Shown here: one piece after another, positions 386 to 7,416 of the stretch
How the letters are laid out: each line of letters begins with the position of its first letter
Position numbering within the stretch: position 1 is the first letter of the stretch
NCBI GenBank assembly: GCA_018816205.1
Contig: JAHIWJ010000109.1
Coordinates: forward strand, 1 to 11,253
DNA: 11,253 bases
Origin: Nanobdellota archaeon
Lineage (GTDB): Archaea > Nanobdellota > Nanobdellia > Pacearchaeales > GW2011-AR1
Reading direction: 5' to 3'
Made by a program: the position numbers and the translations under genes
Notes under the pieces: generated by a model
Databases searched by the model: none
Told to the model about the DNA's origin: nothing
The model's input: the letters and a program-made list of their open reading frames with translations, nothing else

Positions 386-450
386 AAAATTAATAATTTT
401 AAAATACCAAAGTGATAGGTGCGAGTTACAATAATGATCGTTTGCATACC

Positions 451-473
451 CATTTCTCTTTTTTAGAGAAATG
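451..473 (+). other. hairpin downstream of 16S rRNA
   Basis: A perfect 9-bp stem, CATTTCTCT paired with AGAGAAATG, closes a loop of five T. It lies 65 nt after the 16S 3' end and just before the first protein gene. It could be a 3'-processing or stability element of the 16S precursor, or a termination signal. No T-tract follows it, so bacterial-type intrinsic termination is unlikely. The function is inference; the pairing is seen directly. Confidence 0.5.
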
Positions 474-477
474 AAAG

Positions 478-507
478 TTAACAAAATAAAACTTAACAAA
501 ATAAAAC
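478..507 (+). repeat. perfect 15-bp tandem duplication before start codon
   Basis: Two exact copies of TTAACAAAATAAAAC (478-492 and 493-507) abut each other, and the second ends immediately before the ATG at 508. Each copy has an A/T-rich TATA-like core. The upstream copy lies about 16-30 nt ahead of the start, where an archaeal TATA box of a leaderless gene would sit. Confidence 0.85.
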
Positions 508-804
508 ATGGAAGTTGAATCTGGAATTGTTAAAGAAGTCGTTCCTACTGTTGAAGGATGGACGCGCATCACATTAACCTTATTAGACAGCCCAAGATGG
601 GACGAAACTTCTGTAAATTATCATACCACATTATCAGAAACAGAAAGGCGTTATTTAGCAGGAAGAAACATTGATATTATTACTAGAGATAGCGATCTAA
701 GAAATGGTGGAATAACTGAAGAAATTACTTGCGCCGGCGGATCATACCACAAGGTGAATTTATCTCCCGAACAAGTAAAAAGAATTCTAAATAGTAACCC
801 TTAA
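508..804 (+). CDS. hypothetical protein, 98 aa
   Basis: I do not recognise this small soluble protein. It begins MEVESGIVKEVV and has alternating hydrophobic residues suggesting beta strands in the first third, one cysteine at residue 75, and an acidic-basic C-terminal helix (SPEQVKRILNSN). There is no signal peptide or membrane segment. The ATG immediately follows a duplicated A/T-rich element and no Shine-Dalgarno is present, fitting a leaderless transcript. It is the first gene after the 16S rRNA and is followed 24 nt later by the next small gene in the same direction, so the two may be cotranscribed. Reality as a gene is supported by the clean frame, the leaderless-type start and codon texture like the neighbours. 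No function is assigned. Confidence 0.6.
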   Translation: MEVESGIVKEVVPTVEGWTRITLTLLDSPRWDETSVNYHTTLSETERRYLAGRNIDIITRDSDLRNGGITEEITCAGGSYHKVNLSPEQVKRILNSNP

Positions 805-828
805 ATCCCCATCTTCCTTTTACCAATA

Positions 829-1128
829 ATGGCTGGAATTAAAAGAATTCTCTATCTTGTCTTGCCGTTAGCTTTAGCAATAAGTCTACCTTCTCATCAG
901 GAAATTCCCCCAAGATCCTTTTACGAACCCCTAGTTTCTCAAACCGCGAGTTCTCCTAGAACCACCATTAAATTTTCCTGCGGGGGCTCTGGTATCGATT
1001 ATGCAATCGGTGTAAGAGTAGAAAATGGAGATCGATTAGACATTTATGGTTTTTCTACATTCGAAGGACCAAAGAAAATTTCCTGCCATCAAGAAGGAGA
1101 CAAAATTATCGTTGATTCAGGATTATAA
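829..1128 (+). CDS. small putative secreted or membrane-anchored protein, 99 aa
   Basis: The N-terminus has a signal-peptide shape: K5 and R6 precede a hydrophobic stretch at residues about 7-20 (ILYLVLPLALAISL), followed by a polar segment. The remaining roughly 75 residues look like a small beta-rich extracellular domain with two cysteines (51 and 86) that could form a disulfide. I do not recognise the family. No lipobox cysteine follows the hydrophobic stretch, so it is not a typical lipoprotein; it could also stay anchored by an uncleaved N-terminal helix. It follows the 98-aa gene by 24 nt, with a weak A/T-rich element (CTTAAAT) across that gene's stop, so it could be expressed either way. 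Export is inference from hydrophobicity alone. Confidence 0.6.
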   Translation: MAGIKRILYLVLPLALAISLPSHQEIPPRSFYEPLVSQTASSPRTTIKFSCGGSGIDYAIGVRVENGDRLDIYGFSTFEGPKKISCHQEGDKIIVDSGL

Positions 1129-1144
1129 TCGTTAGATGCAAAAT

Positions 1145-1153
1145 CTTAAAAAC
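1145..1153 (+). promoter_or_regulatory. TATA-like box for tRNA-Ala(TGC)
   Basis: CTTAAAAAC lies 31-39 nt before the mature tRNA 5' end, consistent with archaeal TATA placement if the transcript starts a few bases ahead of the tRNA. It falls between the stop of the preceding gene (1128) and the tRNA. Confidence 0.45.
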
Positions 1154-1183
1154 CACCCTTTTCTTTTTCAACTCATTGAAGAC

Positions 1184-1254
1184 GGGCCCGTCGTTCAATG
1201 GTAGGATACGTCACTTGCACTGATGAGACACGAGTTCGATTCTCGTCGGGTCCA
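1184..1254 (+). tRNA. tRNA-Ala (anticodon TGC)
   Basis: The sequence folds into a full cloverleaf of 71 nt. The acceptor is GGGCCCG (1184-1190) with CGGGTCC (1247-1253) plus discriminator A1254, and contains the G3:U70 wobble that is the alanine identity element. The D-arm is GTTC/GGAT with GG in its loop. The anticodon stem is CGTCA/TGATG around loop CTTGCAC, with anticodon TGC at 1216-1218. The T-arm is ACGAG/CTCGT with loop TTCGATT. CCA is not encoded. A tRNA-Ala in the 16S-23S spacer is a classic archaeal arrangement, although here protein genes separate it from both rRNAs. Its 3' end from the T-loop onward is repeated downstream, see the repeats ending at 1388 and 2386. Confidence 0.95.
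1240..1254 (+). repeat. tRNA 3'-end direct repeat, copy 1 (within tRNA-Ala TGC)
   Basis: TTCTCGTCGGGTCCA forms the end of the T-loop, the 3' T-stem and the 3' acceptor strand of the tRNA. It recurs exactly at 1374-1388 and nearly so at 2373-2386. The tRNA 3' end is the usual target of site-specific integrases, so this is a candidate attachment core. Confidence 0.8.
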
Positions 1255-1256
1255 CT

Positions 1257-1367
1257 TCAGGACTGCAAGTCCTGAGACGATGGCTTGTGCCATCGGCAAA
1301 CAAGATTGCGAAGCAATCCAAAAATAGTTTCTTGATTCATACAACTTCTTTTCTAAAGAAGTCGTAT
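1257..1367 (+). other. run of four hairpins between tRNA-end repeats
   Basis: Four consecutive perfect or near-perfect hairpins fill most of the 134-bp segment after the tRNA. The first is TCAGGACT/AGTCCTGA (8 bp, loop GCA, 1257-1275). The second is CGATGGC/GCCATCG (7 bp, loop TTGT, 1278-1295). The third is GATTGC/GCAATC (6 bp, loop GAA, 1304-1318). The fourth is ATAC-ACTTCTTT/AAAGAAGT-GTAT (8 bp, then one mismatch, then 4 bp, 1339-1367). There is no plausible plus-strand gene. It may be a structured RNA transcribed with the tRNA, or a folded recombination site. Identity is unknown. Confidence 0.6.
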
Positions 1368-1373
1368 TTCTGG

Positions 1374-1388
1374 TTCTCGTCGGGTCCA
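1374..1388 (+). repeat. tRNA 3'-end direct repeat, copy 2
   Basis: An exact 15-nt copy of TTCTCGTCGGGTCCA from tRNA-Ala(TGC), ending 134 nt after the tRNA end. The flanks differ (TTTATT follows here, CTTCAG after the tRNA), so the match is confined to the tRNA 3' part, as expected for an attachment-site core rather than a large duplication. Confidence 0.85.
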
Positions 1389-1416
1389 TTTATTTATGTT
1401 TTACTCTGACAATATG

Positions 1417-1424
1417 TTTTTAAT
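1417..1424 (+). promoter_or_regulatory. TATA-like box for the 301-aa gene
   Basis: TTTTTAAT sits 21-28 nt ahead of the ATG at 1445, with no Shine-Dalgarno between, matching a leaderless archaeal promoter. It lies inside the segment bounded by tRNA-end copies 2 and 3, so that segment carries its own promoter. Confidence 0.5.
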
Positions 1425-1444
1425 TAATCTCTTTATCCACAATT

Positions 1445-2350
1445 ATGGCCAAACTAAACCTCCCTGTAGCAGTGCCCTACGTTTATCCGGAAACTGTTGT
1501 AGAAGTTAATGACAGATTACAAGACCTTAACCATCTGGACACTGCCATTGGCAGAATTAAAGAGAAGAACCCTTTGGTTTGCCCAAATTTCAATACGCGC
1601 ATTTCCAGTGTTTCCGAAAGAGTAGAAACTATTGGAAAGTATACTTTCGCACTCCTTTATGAGTGTATGGATCAAGAAGCTAGAGCTGAAAGATTAAGTT
1701 TACCAGTTGTGAGCCGCGAAGCAAGGCGGGATGTTACAAGAAGATTTCAAAAAGATCCAGAAGGTTTTCAATTAGATACAACCAAGGAGCTTTTTTTCAG
1801 AGGAAAAGCGTTGGCAGAACGTTTAAGGAACACAGGCGCATTACCAAATCAAAGGGACCAAGCAGCAGTTTATGTTAATTGGTTGATGCCCTTAGCCTTT
1901 TCCTTTTTATTCACCCAGGCACAAACGAACGCTAATCGACAATTCAGTGGCACTCAGAGAACCTCAGTCGATATGTGCGAATACGAAACCGTTCAAGATC
2001 CCAAGGCAACTTTCAGACAATTCGATGCAAACTTTGTGCCTTTGCGCGGAGACGGCATAGAGCCTTATTTTTTATGGAGAAGAGAAGAAGGCACTTTAGT
2101 TTATGCCCGGGCCAACCCTGAGCTTGGGAGGAACTTTATTGCATTTGTTTCATTAAGAGGATTAGATCGGGCAGTTTTAGGGTTAGTAAAAGAATTTCAA
2201 GAGAAGACCCCCACAGAGTTATTACCCTTGCCATTTGATCCTTCACACCCCAATCATCATAGGCTTAATTGGGTGATGTCGGAATCTACATACAATCCTT
2301 ATTTTGTAAAATACTATGACAGGAATATTGCTGCAGCCACAAGCCATTAA
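1445..2350 (+). CDS. hypothetical protein, 301 aa, inside a tRNA-end-bounded segment
   Basis: I do not recognise this protein. It looks soluble and helical in its first half (residues about 50-165, many Arg/Glu/Gln), with three cysteines (46, 74, 178), aromatic residues in the middle (YVNWLMPLAFSFLF around 143-156) and a His-rich C-terminal stretch (SHPNHHRLNW around 267-276) ending in a Tyr cluster. The start ATG at 1445 is preceded by a TATA-like box and no Shine-Dalgarno. The gene lies between two copies of the tRNA-Ala(TGC) 3' end (1374-1388 and 2373-2386) and nearly fills that interval, so it may be cargo of a small integrated element. I looked for the tyrosine-recombinase pattern (R, HxxR, Y) because of this position and did not find a convincing one. 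Codon use appears somewhat less A/T-biased than that of the neighbours. Confidence 0.7.
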   Translation: MAKLNLPVAVPYVYPETVVEVNDRLQDLNHLDTAIGRIKEKNPLVCPNFNTRISSVSERVETIGKYTFALLYECMDQEARAERLSLPVVSREARRDVTRRFQKDPEGFQLDTTKELFFRGKALAERLRNTGALPNQRDQAAVYVNWLMPLAFSFLFTQAQTNANRQFSGTQRTSVDMCEYETVQDPKATFRQFDANFVPLRGDGIEPYFLWRREEGTLVYARANPELGRNFIAFVSLRGLDRAVLGLVKEFQEKTPTELLPLPFDPSHPNHHRLNWVMSESTYNPYFVKYYDRNIAAATSH

Positions 2351-2372
2351 CATCCATTCACAAAAAAGATGC

Positions 2373-2386
2373 TTCGTCGGGTCCAC
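2373..2386 (+). repeat. tRNA 3'-end direct repeat, copy 3
   Basis: TTCGTCGGGTCCAC shares the 14-nt string TCGTCGGGTCCACT (2374-2387) with the tRNA end and its immediate downstream bases (1243-1256), and 12 nt with copy 2. Because it matches copy 1 beyond the mature tRNA end, it may be the original right-hand junction, with copy 2 a later insertion between them. That order is inference. Confidence 0.75.
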
Positions 2387-2403
2387 TCTTTCTAAGCAAA
2401 CAA

Positions 2404-2411
2404 TTTTAATC
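2404..2411 (+). promoter_or_regulatory. TATA-like box for tRNA-Ala(CGC)
   Basis: TTTTAATC lies 22-29 nt before the mature 5' end of the second tRNA, in the 46-nt interval following tRNA-end repeat copy 3. Confidence 0.4.
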
Positions 2412-2432
2412 ACCCCTTTGTCTATTAACTAG

Positions 2433-2503
2433 GGGCCTGTAGTATCACTGCAGAATATCGCATTCGCATTGCGAAGATCCGAGTTCAATTCTCGGCAGGT
2501 CCA
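2433..2503 (+). tRNA. tRNA-Ala (anticodon CGC)
   Basis: This is a second alanine cloverleaf of 71 nt. The acceptor is GGGCCTG (2433-2439) with CAGGTCC (2496-2502) plus A2503, again with G3:U70. The anticodon stem TCGCA/TGCGA encloses loop TTCGCAT, with anticodon CGC at 2465-2467. The T-arm is CCGAG/CTCGG with loop TTCAATT. The D-arm is poor: GTAT against GAAT gives one Watson-Crick pair, two wobbles and an A-A mismatch, and the 7-nt loop CACTGCA lacks the G18G19 pair that normally docks on the T-loop. It resembles the Ala(TGC) gene upstream and is probably a paralogue. It would read GCG codons. The weak D-arm leaves some doubt about activity. Confidence 0.88.
2494..2503 (+). repeat. tRNA-Ala(CGC) 3'-end direct repeat, copy 1
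   Basis: GGCAGGTCCA at the 3' end of tRNA-Ala(CGC) recurs exactly at 2585-2594. At 10 nt this is shorter than the repeat at the TGC gene, but the phase (ending at the discriminator A) is the same. Confidence 0.65.
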
Positions 2504-2525
2504 GTCAAACTTCCAGAATCTTCTT

Positions 2526-2594
2526 CCTGCCGAGTTAGCTCTCGAATGCGCAAGCGTTCGAACGGCTGAACAAAGTTCAGACCTGGCAGGTCCA
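2526..2594 (+). other. cloverleaf-like structured segment ending in the tRNA-end repeat
   Basis: CCTGCC (2526-2531) pairs with GGCAGG (2585-2590) and encloses three hairpins: GAG-TTAG-CTC (2532-2541), TCGAATGC-GCAA-GCGTTCGA (8 bp with a GNRA tetraloop, 2542-2561) and CTGAAC-AAA-GTTCAG (6 bp, 2566-2580). The 3' end after the outer stem is TCCA (2591-2594), resembling a discriminator base plus CCA. The overall shape mimics a tRNA, but arm sizes are wrong and the third loop has 3 nt instead of 7, so it is not a normal tRNA. It could be a tRNA-like RNA or a folded recombination site. GCCG/CGGC pairing (2529-2532/2563-2566) is a competing alternative. Confidence 0.55.
2585..2594 (+). repeat. tRNA-Ala(CGC) 3'-end direct repeat, copy 2
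   Basis: An exact copy of GGCAGGTCCA ending 91 nt after the tRNA end. It also supplies the 3' strand of the outer stem of the cloverleaf-like segment. Confidence 0.65.
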
Positions 2595-2622
2595 AAAATT
2601 AGTTCCACTTTGTCCCAGGTAG

Positions 2623-2633
2623 CTTTATTAAAC
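2623..2633 (+). promoter_or_regulatory. TATA-like box for the 86-aa gene
   Basis: CTTTATTAAAC lies 22-32 nt before the ATG at 2655 with no Shine-Dalgarno in between, the leaderless pattern used by several genes here. Confidence 0.5.
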
Positions 2634-2654
2634 AATATACTTTAATTCTCCCTC

Positions 2655-2915
2655 ATGGCAGACGAAAGAGAAGTTATTTATCATGTCACTGGAAGAATCA
2701 CCTCAACAGGAGTAGAACTACAAAGACATGTCTCAAGATTGCCTCCTGAAGAAGTCAGGGAACTTGAAGCAGCACTCCGAGAATCATTCAAAGGGCAGGT
2801 AACCTCTTTAAGATATTCAAAAGCTTTCTATCCCATAGACGTCACAATCTACGCAAGAGAATCCCCTCCAAATCCCCCAAGACAACCAGACGTAGACCCA
2901 AGTCTCTACGCTTAG
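2655..2915 (+). CDS. hypothetical protein, 86 aa
   Basis: I do not recognise this small soluble protein. Its N-terminal part looks like beta strands (EVIYHVTGRITSTGVELQRHV), followed by an amphipathic helix rich in Glu and Arg (PPEEVRELEAALRESF, about 31-46), another strand region, and a proline-rich acidic tail (residues about 71-83). It has no cysteine, signal peptide or membrane segment. The start is set by the TATA-like box 22-32 nt upstream. It sits between tRNA-Ala(CGC) with its repeat and the four-TM protein gene 37 nt downstream, which has its own TATA-like box, so it is probably transcribed separately. The regular secondary-structure pattern supports a real gene. Confidence 0.6.
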   Translation: MADEREVIYHVTGRITSTGVELQRHVSRLPPEEVRELEAALRESFKGQVTSLRYSKAFYPIDVTIYARESPPNPPRQPDVDPSLYA

Positions 2916-2922
2916 CACAACA

Positions 2923-2932
2923 TTTTTTAAAC
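2923..2932 (+). promoter_or_regulatory. TATA-like box for the four-TM protein gene
   Basis: TTTTTTAAAC sits 20-29 nt upstream of the ATG at 2952. An ATG also occurs at 2949 but is out of frame. Confidence 0.5.
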
Positions 2933-2951
2933 ATCTTTCTTTCTTTTATGC

Positions 2952-3746
2952 ATGGCCGGACTAAAAAATTTCTTTGTAGGCATACTAACAACCTTGCTTA
3001 TAATCTCACTTTCCCTCGCGATAGCTTCATTAGTCTTCTCAATGATGATTAATGAAAAGACACTTCTCTCAATAGCAGACAACGAAGTTAAGCCATTTAT
3101 CGAAGAGCAAATTGATACAGCATTAGCAGAAACCTCTCAATCTCAAATGGAAAACGAGCGCCGCACTGCAACACGGCTCTGCGAGCAAGGAGAAGTCTAT
3201 GCACTTGACATGGAAGCAGGTGATCCTATTGAAATTGACTGCACAGCCATCAACAACACCCCTCCTGAGAACTTCAAGGATTTACTAAAAGATTCTATAG
3301 TTGACTACACAATAAACTCTATCAAGGGCGGCCTTCAAGAAGCATCATCAAAACTCTTCTACATTATTCTAGCTTTGTGGATATCTGTCGCCCTATCACT
3401 AATACTCATTTTAGCAATTATCCTAATTGAAGGAAAGTTTCCCTTCAAAACTTTCGGAACAACCGGAATAATTGCAGGCCTCCCCTTCATTTTCATAGTC
3501 TTCTCCCAAACATTTTTAATTGCAATGGTAAAAGAAGAAATACAAAAATCAGTCCCTCCAGAACTTATCGATCAGGTCTTACAATCTTCGCTTTTCCAAG
3601 CAATAACCCAATTGTTAAAGAACCTAATGCTCGGCATGGCCATCGGCTTCGCTCTACTCTTCCTAGCAGGGCTAATCCTTTTGCTGGCAGGAGTCTTACT
3701 TCACAAAAAAAATCCACAGGAGAAAACTCCCCCTAAAAAGGCCTAA
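2952..3746 (+). CDS. hypothetical membrane protein, four predicted TM segments, 264 aa
   Basis: The hydrophobic segments are at about residues 8-32, 135-159, 165-192 and 225-250. Between TM1 and TM2 is a polar domain of about 100 residues, probably extracytoplasmic, with two cysteines (77 and 97) that could form a disulfide; a second polar amphipathic stretch lies at about 193-223. The C-terminus is short and lysine/proline-rich, probably cytoplasmic. I recognise no named family; proteins of this general layout are common and uncharacterised in small-genome archaea (family-level recollection, not a search). The gene has its own TATA-like box and lies directly upstream of the 23S promoter region. 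Nothing in the sequence ties it to ribosomes, and its position between the rRNA genes appears incidental. Confidence 0.75.
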   Translation: MAGLKNFFVGILTTLLIISLSLAIASLVFSMMINEKTLLSIADNEVKPFIEEQIDTALAETSQSQMENERRTATRLCEQGEVYALDMEAGDPIEIDCTAINNTPPENFKDLLKDSIVDYTINSIKGGLQEASSKLFYIILALWISVALSLILILAIILIEGKFPFKTFGTTGIIAGLPFIFIVFSQTFLIAMVKEEIQKSVPPELIDQVLQSSLFQAITQLLKNLMLGMAIGFALLFLAGLILLLAGVLLHKKNPQEKTPPKKA

Positions 3747-3767
3747 CACCGACGTCAAACCCAAATG

Positions 3768-3775
3768 TTTAAAAA
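3768..3775 (+). promoter_or_regulatory. candidate 23S rRNA promoter, upstream TATA-like box
   Basis: TTTAAAAA within AATGTTTAAAAACC is a strong archaeal-type TATA element about 220 nt before the mature 23S 5' end. A start about 25 nt downstream would give a leader of roughly 200 nt containing the processing stem. No gene on either strand is convincing between 3747 and 3990, so that interval is interpreted as 23S promoter and leader. Confidence 0.5.
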
Positions 3776-3897
3776 CCCTCGATAACCTAACATTTTACTC
3801 TTCGGAGGAAACTCAAAATCGTAAATCGAAAACTCATAAATCATATTCACTTTTTTAGTGATAGTGGTGCTATACCGACGGTTAAGTATCACGCAGA

Positions 3898-3906
3898 GTT
3901 TATAAT
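3898..3906 (+). promoter_or_regulatory. candidate 23S rRNA promoter, proximal TATA-like box
   Basis: GTTTATAAT about 90 nt before the 23S is a second possible TATA box. A start near 3930 would still include both halves of the 5' processing stem. Which of the two boxes is used cannot be decided from sequence. Confidence 0.4.
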
Positions 3907-3937
3907 CAATGAAGCAAGTAAGAAGGTAATTTCCACT

Positions 3938-3956
3938 AGCAAACAAAATGTTTGCT
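3938..3956 (+). other. hairpin in the 23S leader
   Basis: AGCAAACA pairs perfectly with TGTTTGCT (8 bp, loop AAA). It stands immediately before the 5' half of the 23S processing stem and may help set up precursor folding. Confidence 0.45.
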
Positions 3957-3990
3957 GTTTAGAAGGAACAATATAGTTTATCTGATCTTA
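3957..3990 (+). other. 5' half of 23S rRNA processing stem
   Basis: CTGATCTTA (3982-3990) is perfectly complementary to TAAGATCAG (7399-7407), and GTTTAGAAG (3957-3965) to CTTCTAAAC (7408-7416). The two 5' parts are separated by 16 nt while the 3' partners are contiguous. Alternatively GTTTA at 3976-3980 pairs with TAAAC at 7412-7416, leaving a small asymmetric loop. Such stems bring the 23S ends together for archaeal rRNA processing. A textbook bulge-helix-bulge is not obvious. Confidence 0.7.
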
Positions 3991-4027
3991 TTAATTAAAC
4001 TGTTAGATGGATAGCTTGGTTTGGATT

Positions 4028-4058
<31 letters not shown>

Positions 4059-5183
4059 CTTGGGGAGCCGCATGCGGGCTTTGAGCCAAGGATCTCCGAA
4101 TGCGAAAACGTGTTCTACGAAAATCCCGAGAGGGAAGCATACGCCGGGAATTGAAACATCTTAGTACCGGCAGGAAGAGAAATCAATTGAGATTCCCTAA
4201 TTAGCAGCGAGCGAAAAGGGAACAGGGCAAACCGAATCTCCGTTGGAAACGACGGCAGAGATGTGGTGGAGTTGAGCCTAAGTTGTCGAGGGGAAGTTGA
4301 CTGGAACGTCATGCTTTAGAGGGTGATAGCCCCGTACTTGAAGACGATATGGCATGCTCTAACAGAGTAAGGCCCCCTAGAAAGGAGGCCCGAATACGGC
4401 AGGATTAACTGCCAACCCTAAATATAAATCCAAGTCCGATAGCGAACTTAGTACCGCGAGGGAAAGCTGAAAAGTACCCATAATAGGGGGTTAAAAGACT
4501 TGAAATCTATCAGTGACATGTGGTTACGGCATTACGGTGTTGTAACGTACGTTTTGAAAAACGGGCCACGGAGTGTATTTATGCGGCGAGGTTAAATAAG
4601 AAGCCGGAGCGCAAGCGAGTCTGAAAGGGCGCGAGTCACCTGGATACGACCCGAAGCCGGATGATCTATTCCTGAGCAGGTCGAAGTTTTTCGAAAGGAG
4701 AATGGAGGACCGAACCGGTGTTGTGCGCATGCACTCGGATGATTTGGGAATAGGGGTGAAAAGCCAATCTAATTCGGCAATGGCTGGTTCCTGTCGAAAT
4801 ATGCCGTAGTATAGTCTCTACGTGCTCGCCAGCGGGGTAAAGTACGGATAAGGTCCGCAGGGCCGCAAGGTTACGGGACCTATTCCAACTCAGAACCTGT
4901 TGGCTGTATATGTAGGGAATAGGGGGCAGGGCGTAAGGTTCTGTTCCGAAACGCGAACAAGCGAGACTAAAGTTAAGGTCCCTAAAGGTATGCTAAGTGT
5001 AACAAACCTGGTTTTGAACCTGAGACACTAGGGATGTAGGCCCAGAAGCAGCCATCATGTAAGGAAAGCGTAACAGCTCACCTATTGAGGTTCGAAGCGG
5101 GGAAAATGGACGGGGCTAAGCATACTACCGATACTTTAGAGGCACTCGACAATTTTGTGGGTTTTTTTGAAAAAATAATCTTG

Positions 5184-5209
5184 AAGCCCGACGATTCGTC
5201 GTCGGGTTT
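5184..5209 (+). terminator. terminator-like hairpin inside the 23S insertion
   Basis: CCCGACGA (5187-5194) pairs with TCGTCGGG (5199-5206) around a TTCG tetraloop. The stem is extended by AAG/TTT to 11 bp and followed by TTTTAATTTTATTT. This resembles a bacterial intrinsic terminator, lying ahead of the insert's own gene and inside an rRNA gene. It may instead be a folding or cleavage signal for the insert. Confidence 0.5.
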
Positions 5210-5270
5210 TAATTTTATTTCATATTCAAAAGACAAGAAGAAAGTAACTAAAGAGTAATAACAAAACGAA

Positions 5271-5274
5271 AGGT
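5271..5274 (+). promoter_or_regulatory. weak Shine-Dalgarno of the insertion gene
   Basis: AGGT, four bases complementary to the 16S tail CACCT, lies 4 nt before the ATG at 5279. Unlike the leaderless genes elsewhere in the window, this gene would be inside a long rRNA precursor and would need an internal ribosome binding site. Confidence 0.35.
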
Positions 5275-5278
5275 TTAA

Positions 5279-5662
5279 ATGTGGGTAAATTTCCAGAGAT
5301 ATATGAAAGATTTACCACAAGACGTTAGAGAAGGATTGCAAGAAGTTCTAAATCTGTTAGATGTGTATATAGCTCGCGAAGATTGGTCTCGTCAGCAACA
5401 TTTTGCGAGATATGGCCTTTTTGATGGTAAAATGAAACCATCAGAGAAATGGAAAGGTCCTTTCTTGAGCAGTGAAGAATTTCAGAGAATTGAAGATAGG
5501 AGTGATGCGAGAAAACGAATTTTTTATGGGATAAAAGGAGATATCCATCATGCGTTTAAGATGCGTGGGTTCTCGCCAATAGAACAAAGAGACTGCGACG
5601 GTCAATTATATTTTGACTTTTTTGATAAACGAGATTTGTATCCCCAAGTTAAACCTTTTTAG
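5279..5662 (+). CDS. orphan protein encoded in the 23S rRNA insertion, 127 aa
   Basis: I do not recognise this protein. It has an N-terminal amphipathic helical part (residues about 1-35), an Arg/Lys- and aromatic-rich middle (EDWSRQQHFARYGLF, SEKWKGPF), a charged helix (EEFQRIEDRSDARKRIFYGIKG, about 66-87) and a C-terminal Asp/Phe-rich end (QLYFDFFDKRDLYP). It has a single cysteine (106). It lacks the LAGLIDADG and GIY-YIG motifs of intron homing endonucleases, I see no complete HNH motif, and it does not resemble the four-helix S23 proteins of bacterial 23S intervening sequences. The mixed-charge, aromatic composition would suit RNA or protein binding, but that is inference. The start is supported by a weak Shine-Dalgarno and by position; Met9 is an alternative. 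It is the only gene in the insertion and fills most of it. Confidence 0.7.
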   Translation: MWVNFQRYMKDLPQDVREGLQEVLNLLDVYIAREDWSRQQHFARYGLFDGKMKPSEKWKGPFLSSEEFQRIEDRSDARKRIFYGIKGDIHHAFKMRGFSPIEQRDCDGQLYFDFFDKRDLYPQVKPF

Positions 5663-5711
5663 TTAATTACCTTTAACATATTATTTCAGCAATTTCAATT
5701 TATTATTTCAC

Positions 5712-5748
5712 AAATCATATTCATCATTCGATGAAAAAATCATATTCA
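5712..5748 (+). repeat. duplicated 12-mer AAATCATATTCA near the insert 3' end
   Basis: AAATCATATTCA occurs at 5712-5723 and 5737-5748, and a third exact copy lies in the 23S leader at 3838-3849. A related TTTCATATTCAAAAG is at 5218-5232. Between the two insert copies TTCATC/GATGAA forms a 6-bp hairpin (5720-5735). Confidence 0.7.
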
Positions 5749-7398
5749 TAAAACCCACAAATAGAGTGTTCTGGTAGACAGGCGTGGATTCTGCGCAGAA
5801 GCGTTCTCGAGAGAGTGCGTGGAGCGGGATCCAACGAGAATCGTGGTGTAAGTAAGATCTATTTGCCCTGAGAACGGGCAACGCCGAAAGAGCAAGGTTT
5901 CCTTGGCACTATCGTTTAACCAAGGGTTAGTCGGCGCCTAAGTGTACCCTTAACTGGCGTACGCGAATGGACATCTGGTTAATATTCCAGAACTGTTGCA
6001 ATGTTCCGCACATAACGCTTCCGGATAGATGGAGGATCGAGAGGTCTAGTCAAGAAGAAAGACGTCGAGCGTAATGCACAGACGCGTCTGAATTCTGATG
6101 AATCCGTTGACTCCAGGAGCCCATGAAAAATATGTGCTTAACGCGTTGCAATAGCCGTACCAAGAACCGACACTGGTGCTCTAGCTGAGAAGGCTAAGGC
6201 GTGAAAGGATAAACTGGTTTAGGGAATTCGGCATATTAGCCCCGTATCTTCGGTACAAGGGGTGTCTATCGATGTATCTGATTTATTAGGTGCGTCTGTA
6301 GATCGCAGTAACAAGGACTGCCCGACTGTTTATCAAAAACGTAGCCGAGTGCAAATCGGAAACGACTAGTATACTCGGTGAGACCTGCCCAGTTGCGGTG
6401 TGTCAAAGTTCATTTCAATGGACCTAAGCCCCGTAAAACGGCGGGCCTAACTATGAGGCTCTTAAGGTAGCGTAATGCCTTGTCATCTGAATGGTGACGT
6501 GCATGAATGGTTTAATGAGGTAGTCACTGTCCCAAACCAGGACCTTCTGAACTCACTTGCCGGTGAACATGCCGGCAACTCCTAGTGGGAAGCGGAGACC
6601 TTGTGGACCTTTACTGCAACTTGTTGTTGCAGTGTTTGGTGGGATGCATAGCATAAGTGGGAGCGTCGATGGTTAGCTTAGGCAAAACCGGAGCAACATT
6701 GTAATACCACTCACCTCGCTGAACATTGCTAACTTTCTTCGGAGAGGACAGCGGCAGGCGGGCAGTTTGGCTGGGGCGGCACCCTCCAGAAAAGATATCT
6801 GGAGGGCCCAAAGTTAAGCTCAGTTAGGTTGGAAATCTAACGTTGAGTGCAGAGGCAAAAGCTTAACTGACTGTATTTCGCACAGCAAAGAATGCAGAGA
6901 TGAAAGTCTGGCTCAGCGACCCCACGTGGCCTTTTAATAGGGCCCGTGTGTGACAGAAAAGGTACCCCAAGGATAATTGGCTTGTCGCGCCCGATAGTCC
7001 ATATTGACGGCGCGGTTTGGTGCGTCGCTGTCGGCTCTTCCTATCCTGGCACTGCACAAGGTGCCAAGGGTGTCGGAGTTCACGCATTAAAAGGGATCGT
7101 TAGCTGGGTTAAGAACGTCGTGAGACAGTTTGTATGATATCTACTAGGAGTGCTGTTGTCTGAGTGGAACGACCATCTAGTACGAGAGGAACGGTGGTTG
7201 GTTGCCTCTGGTGTACCGGTTGTTACGAGCAGGCCGGGCAGCTACGCAATAGGCGGATAAGTTCTGAAAGCATCTAAGAACGAAGCCGTCCGCAAGACGA
7301 GACAACTAAGGCCGTCATAGAAGATGACGTTGATAGAGTTGGTGTGTAAGATTCAAGGCAACGAGAATTTAAGCACGCAACTACTAAAAGCCTTACTT

Positions 7399-7416
7399 TA
7401 AGATCAGCTTCTAAAC
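7399..7416 (+). other. 3' half of 23S rRNA processing stem
   Basis: TAAGATCAG and CTTCTAAAC, contiguous here, are complementary to 3982-3990 and 3957-3965 upstream of the 23S. This marks the 3' limit of the 23S precursor domain. Confidence 0.7.

Follow-up and report, generated by a model that had tools for sequence, protein, structure and literature searches.

Helix 45 of the 23S rRNA gene in a Pacearchaeota-like family holds inserts resembling intervening sequences with apparently exchangeable genes

The 23S rRNA gene of the draft archaeal genome G000 is interrupted in helix 45 by an insert that we read, with a probability of roughly 0.6, as a resident gene cassette, that is, a non-coding frame around one small accessory gene. 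The frame would comprise complementary ends and an archaeal promoter-like block, in most cases together with a hairpin and a conserved 3′ tail. At the sequence level, this reading is supported by the position of the inserts, by complementary ends whose sequence changes between genomes and by a patchy presence, as well as by one frame found with unrelated genes, one gene family found in two frames and copies outside 23S that bear 23S exon pieces. What is new is a set of inserts that resemble bacterial intervening sequences (IVSs), carry promoter-bearing, apparently exchangeable genes and have outside copies, so far in one Pacearchaeota-like family. In open-licence papers judged by their titles and the starts of their abstracts, which is weak evidence, we recognised no description of such archaeal inserts.

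Besides a full-length archaeal 23S gene, the window, by which we mean the whole 11,253-nt stretch of DNA analysed, contains two tRNA-Ala genes, several ORFs and a 3′ portion of a 16S gene. G000 is a draft of 1.08 Mb, 72% complete, and this 23S locus is the only one found in it, so that the interrupted gene most likely supplies the ribosomes of the cell; an uninterrupted second copy could be absent from draft bins. The features of the gene and its insert are the following.

3982..7407, + strand: 23S rRNA gene hosting the insert (Rfam RF02540, LSU_rRNA_archaea, 2171.9 bits, model positions 1-2987, the whole model)
5143..5147, + strand: 5′ strand of the native helix 45 stem, CACTC (Rfam structure alignment; the corresponding stem pairs in 8/8 carriers)
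5148..5763, + strand: insert of 616 nt in the helix 45 apical loop (Rfam alignment; empty sites in relatives)
5148..5153, + strand: 5′ side of an asymmetric internal loop, GACAAT, identical in G154 and G148
5154..5165, + strand: 5′ terminal arm, TTTGTGGGTTTT
5181..5212, + strand: hairpin of 14 pairs (6 G-C) followed by a T-rich stretch, terminator-like, upstream of the internal promoter-like block
5258..5280, + strand: archaeal promoter-like block with BRE-like CGAAAGG and TATA-like TTTAAAT (5274-5280)
5303..5662, + strand: cargo gene, 119 aa, of no known family
5707..5723, + strand: 3′ tail motif, TTCACAAATCATATTCA
5737..5749, + strand: second copy of AAATCATATTCAT
5750..5761, + strand: 3′ terminal arm, AAAACCCACAAA
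5762..5763, + strand: 3′ side of the internal loop, TA
5764..5768, + strand: 3′ strand of the native helix 45 stem, GAGTG (Rfam structure alignment; pairing in 8/8 carriers)

A local Rfam alignment sets 614 nt of the window against 5 in the model, within one small hairpin that we take to be helix 45 by E. coli numbering. The empty site of a relative in the same genus (L005) reads GCACTC-GAAA-GAGTG, from which we conclude that the insert replaces a 4-nt loop. An earlier note on this DNA, made from its letters, had described an intact native stem CACTC/GAGTG, some 600 extra bp inside helix 45 and a perfect 12-bp inverted repeat extending the helix. All three hold: the stem strands align at 5143-5147 and 5764-5768, the insert spans 5148-5763, and the two arms (5154-5165 and 5750-5761) are 100% complementary, continuing helix 45 across the asymmetric internal loop GACAAT/TA. 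When the first and last 45 nt were shuffled 1000 times by mononucleotide, no match of this length arose. Bacterial 23S IVSs are expected in helix 9, 25 or 45, with terminal inverted repeats extending the helix, and to leave 23S fragments unligated in the mature rRNA; the window insert has such repeats and, if our helix number is right, such a position. The anatomy of an IVS at helix 45 of an archaeal gene, as the note had put it, is thus borne out by position and terminal repeat.

The insert's own gene, also claimed by the note, is present as an ORF, yet its start is probably ATG 5303 (119 aa) rather than ATG 5279 (127 aa): its closest homologue, 91% identical and likewise 119 aa long, begins at that point, and the upstream ATG overlaps the TATA-like TTTAAAT. 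The gene is probably leaderless. We presume the names BRE and TATA for the block at 5258..5280; a near-identical block precedes another gene on contig C49 of the same genome, and a search for it gave 3 matches versus 0 in the control.

We also looked, as the note had proposed, for insertions at the same helix in other archaeal 23S genes, those of the family and the order, and found at least seven further carriers, all in one family. At least eight carriers are therefore known among the matches listed: the window genome G000, G154 (JAHISS010000039), G148 (JAHITZ010000045), G135, G099 (JAFCDB010000020), G039 (JAGVXI010000012), G003 (JAHKAF010000020) and G144 (MFWP01000012). They were found by DNA searches of the family and the order, in which gaps between two flank matches were inspected. 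A pattern scan of named genomes matched 8 archaeal and 6 bacterial stretches, 14 in all. Of the archaeal stretches, six were taken as carriers, all Pacearchaeota or Nanoarchaeota, and two proved to be copies lying outside 23S; the matches in the six bacterial records and in two viral contigs were treated as chance, the viral stretches containing no 23S by eye. The carriers are draft genomes and several of their records are marked MAG, as would suit an assembly or binning artefact. Eight genomes with the same insertion point and much the same plan, records that name several different isolates, and two further homologues of the window cargo on other contigs make such an origin highly improbable. 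The earlier reading had overlooked both this set of inserts with different genes behind promoter-like blocks and the copies outside 23S.

The eight inserts measure 362-653 nt at 26-42% G+C, and close to the native stem each has ends complementary over 8-15 nt. Per 1000 end shuffles, the observed length was reached 0 times for G000, 3 for G154, 32 for G148, 33 for G135, 0 for G099, 2 for G039, 0 for G003 and 12 for G144. The distance between native stem and arm is 6-10 nt on the 5′ side and 1-3 nt on the 3′ side in seven inserts, and 19 and 16 nt in G003; the predicted fold of every whole insert pairs both ends. Arm sequences vary from one genome to another: 8 arm positions compared across 8 genomes include 24 compensatory cells, and 64/64 arm cells pair (0/5000 permutations), a dependent test because the arms had been picked for complementarity. 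According to the predicted folds, a hairpin follows the 5′ arm in most inserts. All eight contain a promoter-like block ending in TTTAAATA or a near variant and, some tens of nt past it, an intact ORF of 72-140 codons, a spacing that would fit a leaderless mRNA. A 3′ tail with CATATTCA precedes the 3′ arm in seven of the eight carriers, including the rRNA copy of G003, though one pattern search matched only the free copy of that genome. The insert of G135 has neither hairpin nor CATATTCA tail and, on these grounds, may be a separate kind at the same site. In a draw of 371 genomes from the phylum, the CATATTCA pattern occurred in 3, all within the carrier family; the pattern is blind to inserts like that of G135 and overlooks some longer gaps, so that absence outside the family refers to this frame only.

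Complementary ends in all eight carriers would also stabilise a permanent expansion segment, that is, an insert that stays in the mature rRNA with its ORF merely tolerated, and 5S rRNA expansions have been reported in prokaryotes, according to an excerpt of PMC7812874. Several hundred nucleotides of such low G+C content with a promoter-like block and a gene speak against this explanation, as do the copies outside 23S, and we regard it as unlikely.

Of the 41 LSU loci placed on a tree, 8 are filled and 33 empty. The distribution of filled loci takes 6 changes to explain, and well supported branches force at least 5 gains or losses. The loci are mostly the best-scoring ones rather than a random sample, and G003 was placed by hand. 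G092 and G027, the rows nearest the window, are both empty. Whether the filled state clusters is unclear, since 53 of 500 label shuffles gave an equally low number of changes; on this tree, an unclustered filled state fits mobility and fits repeated loss as well.

The genes inside the inserts differ. When ten cargo proteins (all but that of the G106 copy described below) were compared with one another, only those of G154 and G099 matched (36% over 89 aa, E 2e-15), the next best pair reaching E 0.055; a common protein for all inserts was rejected on account of this single matching pair. G154 and G148 are sisters on the LSU tree and have 115 nt of 3′ tail in common at 86%, and their cargoes show no match, whereas G099 belongs to another clade than G154 and its cargo does match. 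Because one gene family thus sits in two different frames, cargo appears to have been exchanged between frames. The other cargo differences could partly reflect fast divergence instead. A profile of the G154/G099 family gave 26 matches in the protein set, the two queries and 24 further ones, one of them weak (E 0.099), and the motifs LYHG, ELNSR and GTP are invariant over 21 aligned rows (the two queries and 19 matches). The family occurs in 8 of 180 genomes of the carrier family, twice in helix 45 and six times elsewhere. No rRNA was found at these six other loci, and the frame was not seen by eye around the two of them whose flanks were viewed.

In databases, two relatives matched the window cargo, at 91% and 52-53% identity, the homologues on other contigs mentioned above; among the 180 family genomes the window cargo gave, apart from itself, three weak hits (E 0.006-0.008). 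No Pfam model scored above cut-off for the cargoes of the window, of six other carriers (G144 excluded) and of the G106 copy, and the same cargoes gave no match to the S23-type protein (S23p, which we take to be PF05635). The window cargo is without an NCBIfam match, and PHROGs matched none of the ten cargoes. PADLOC gave one match among the ten, to the window cargo (E 0.017, 11.7 bits), which we took as chance. We set a viral origin aside: PHROGs gave no match, and viral contigs yielded no relative of either the window cargo or the G154/G099 family.

Outside 23S we found three further copies, in G003 (L062), G052 (L069) and G106 (L107), and all keep 23S exon pieces, which argues that the unit gets copied. 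Some 29, 48 and 44 nt of 3′ exon sequence are retained in G003, G052 and G106, respectively. At the 5′ side, G052 keeps an aligned piece, G003 keeps about 13 nt as judged by eye, unaligned to a 23S set that excluded G003, and G106 keeps none. The free copy of G003 lies about 2.2 kb upstream of a 16S gene, on a contig that overlaps by 96 nt the G003 contig whose 23S holds the helix 45 copy; from this overlap, both copies seem to lie within one rRNA region. Their frame ends are 87-90% alike and their genes are different. The G052 copy lies about 1.5 kb downstream of the end of a 23S gene, and its arms are unpaired, the longest match of 6 being reached by 795/1000 shuffles. The G106 copy follows rpsI and lacks the 5′ arm along with the 5′ exon; the 47 nt that precede its 3′ exon match exactly those of the 23S copy of G003, a genome that, by group code, belongs to a different genus. 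Paired ends thus occur in 8/8 copies inside rRNA versus 1/3 outside (G003, 14 nt, 1/1000 shuffles), a contrast in keeping with arms that act in the rRNA precursor, the sample outside being small.

The G106 copy is flanked by rpsI on one side and by a gene for a Recombinase-domain protein (PF07508) on the other, and we considered an integrase platform. In 30 loci viewed (both genes found in 29), the gap between rpsI and the Recombinase gene holds assorted genes or almost nothing, so we read the placement as coincidence. No transposase matches were found in the window, six other carriers or the G106 copy, and no mobility enzyme was seen in the inserts. By eye, there is no clear target-site duplication at helix 45; the G106 copy is flanked on both sides by a T run, maybe by chance.

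Outside copies with exon pieces could also reflect exon recognition by an intron, which would be spliced out and leave the 23S rRNA rejoined. Archaeal rRNA introns exist, and Pacearchaeota have group I introns in LSU rRNA, according to the available part of PMC6125680. Relaxed matches resembling a bulge-helix-bulge (BHB) motif exceed the shuffle mean in 6/8 carriers, as long stems would also bring about. Against a BHB, group I or group II intron, our own script, run without a positive control, found no strict BHB at the exon-insert junction of any of the 8 carriers. Its one strict hit, in G148, pairs the insert interior with the 3′ exon, and strict hits arise in shuffles as well. At gathering score, Rfam reported no intron for the window, for six other carriers' loci (all but G135) or for two free copies, and none appeared at E up to 1 in window positions 5000-5900. 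LAGLIDADG genes, common though dispensable in archaeal BHB introns, and other homing endonucleases had no match in the cargoes of the window and six other carriers. The insert position is absent from the group I positions in the table excerpted from PMC6125680. An intron is therefore improbable, and the note's statement that neither a BHB motif nor a LAGLIDADG gene is seen stands, for the strict BHB within the reach of that script. By eye, we also weighed a K-turn at the junction and set it aside. The inserts share with archaeal BHB and group I introns with LAGLIDADG genes a place in an rRNA gene and the ability to carry an ORF, and differ from them in lacking a junction BHB, a ribozyme match and an endonuclease match. 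Insertions in the 23S genes of CPR bacteria are likewise frequent in reduced genomes, and some encode an S23-type IVS protein; over half of those are group-I-like, unlike the archaeal inserts, and LAGLIDADG is the commonest protein domain there (PMC11270868, in excerpt).

The route of removal that the note had suggested, by RNase III, did not find support. RNase III (TIGR02191) was detected in 1 of the 180 family genomes (G049) and in none of the 8 carriers, drafts in which the gene could be missed singly, so that at the gene level this property of bacterial 23S IVSs has no counterpart here. The ORF beside the G049 gene looks, we presume, like a bacterial NusB, and the hit may therefore come from a stray bacterial contig. 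A review, in the part available, reports that RNase III has not been found in archaea. Bacteria excise IVSs with this enzyme, and bacterial IVSs, as excerpts of PMC4990558 describe them, occupy the same helix with terminal inverted repeats, a sense-oriented ORF and a scattered spread, their function and origin still being termed unclear. These likenesses to the IVSs of Coxiella burnetii type would suit a bacterial IVS acquired by an archaeon as an inert selfish stem-loop, cut by RNase III and bearing a decaying S23-type ORF. The near absence of the enzyme, cargoes without family matches and, in 8/8 inserts, a promoter-like block with an intact ORF all run counter to this scenario, and we give it little credence. 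The archaeal inserts further differ from bacterial IVSs in leaderless-looking genes, differing cargo and copies outside 23S. Judged from its anatomy, the insert would work like a bacterial IVS, but we keep it apart from that class because no carrier has a detected RNase III gene and no tested cargo is an S23 protein.

As a gene cassette, the unit would move between loci and genomes, most likely by recombination on 23S-derived flanks, a route we favour because we detected in the unit neither a recombinase nor an endonuclease of any known family. The arms would join the ends of the insert in the precursor and extend helix 45, so that the ribosome could fold around it. A nuclease other than RNase III might then excise or nick the insert, giving a fragmented 23S rRNA, or else the insert might stay as an expansion. 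Transcription of the gene would start mainly at its own promoter and yield a leaderless mRNA, and hairpin and 3′ tail may separate the cargo transcript from the rRNA transcript. In Pyrococcus furiosus, helix 98 is removed from the LSU rRNA by an unknown enzyme (PMC7758197, in part), from which a route free of RNase III seems possible in archaea, and 23S fragmentation in the carriers is plausible by analogy. That case concerns a 41-nt native helix at another position, with no gene or mobility mentioned in the excerpt.

The sequences suggest that helix 45 may be a site where exchangeable genes settle. Tentatively, and with the odds somewhat against it, we extend this to an archaeal cassette system in which helix 45 of a usually single 23S gene would be a protected exchange site: a standard promoter and arm frame would accept different small genes, travel on short 23S exon homologies and be removed independently of RNase III, and it would not easily be lost, since imprecise removal breaks the ribosome. 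If true, there is a class of IVS-like rRNA inserts in archaea without RNase III, archaeal rRNA fragmentation becomes testable beyond Pyrococcus, and rRNA genes are used as a site of gene exchange. Differing promoter-bearing genes and empty sister sites would make the question of IVS function and origin testable. For surveys, 23S genes with an internal gene may be broken or misread in annotation.

Sequences like the 3′ tail, which we weighed as a possible signal at gene ends in general, also occur elsewhere in G000. With up to 3 mismatches, the CATATTCA tail has 10 matches there versus 2 in the control, 2 of the 10 inside the insert. The two best matches outside it lie 48 and 87 nt past a stop codon, and 5 of 6 weaker ones fall inside ORFs.

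The spacer between the 16S and 23S genes of the window is long and gene-bearing:

Window 386-3981: 16S-23S spacer, about 3.6 kb, with two tRNA-Ala genes and five plus-strand ORFs of 86-301 aa.

A Pfam search with these five ORFs returned no match above the cut-off. A copy of the insert's 3′ tail motif, with 2 mismatches, lies at 3833-3849, just 5′ of the 23S gene and 87 nt past a stop codon. Elsewhere in the same genome, a region (L002, contig G000:C49, 85-1620) contains a 36-nt block that is 92% like the cargo promoter, the promoter-like block ahead of the insert's own gene, and that likewise precedes a gene. By eye, the end stretch of this gene is repeated downstream with differences chiefly at A positions, and the repeat is followed by an ORF that reads like a reverse transcriptase, an arrangement that to us looks like a diversity-generating retroelement.

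Two other carriers of the helix 45 insert give rRNA gene matches of unusual length (L063 and L071). At 2150 nt, the 16S match of G148 exceeds its model by several hundred nucleotides, as does the 23S match of G154 at 4095 nt, of which the insert accounts for 586; both genes are therefore likely to contain additional insertions. The 23S match of G148 is oddly short, at 2542 nt including the insert.

The free copy in G003 (L062) is adjoined by HepT-like and nucleotidyltransferase genes (1188-2098), which often form a toxin-antitoxin pair. Positions 1-99 of this locus match 1012-1110 of L109, a contig from the same bin, exactly over 99 nt, beyond which the small genes differ; this divergence possibly represents a strain-level difference or an assembly branch. 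In 29 of the 30 loci viewed, rpsI, which precedes the free copy in G106, has close by a gene that encodes a PF07508 Recombinase domain or one related to that gene (L107, 8233-9584, and L132-L161); the gene content of the gap between the two varies by species.

The sole RNase III found among the 180 family genomes is carried by G049:C22 (L060), where the adjoining ORF is NusB-like; this contig may be of bacterial origin and binned with the archaeal genome.
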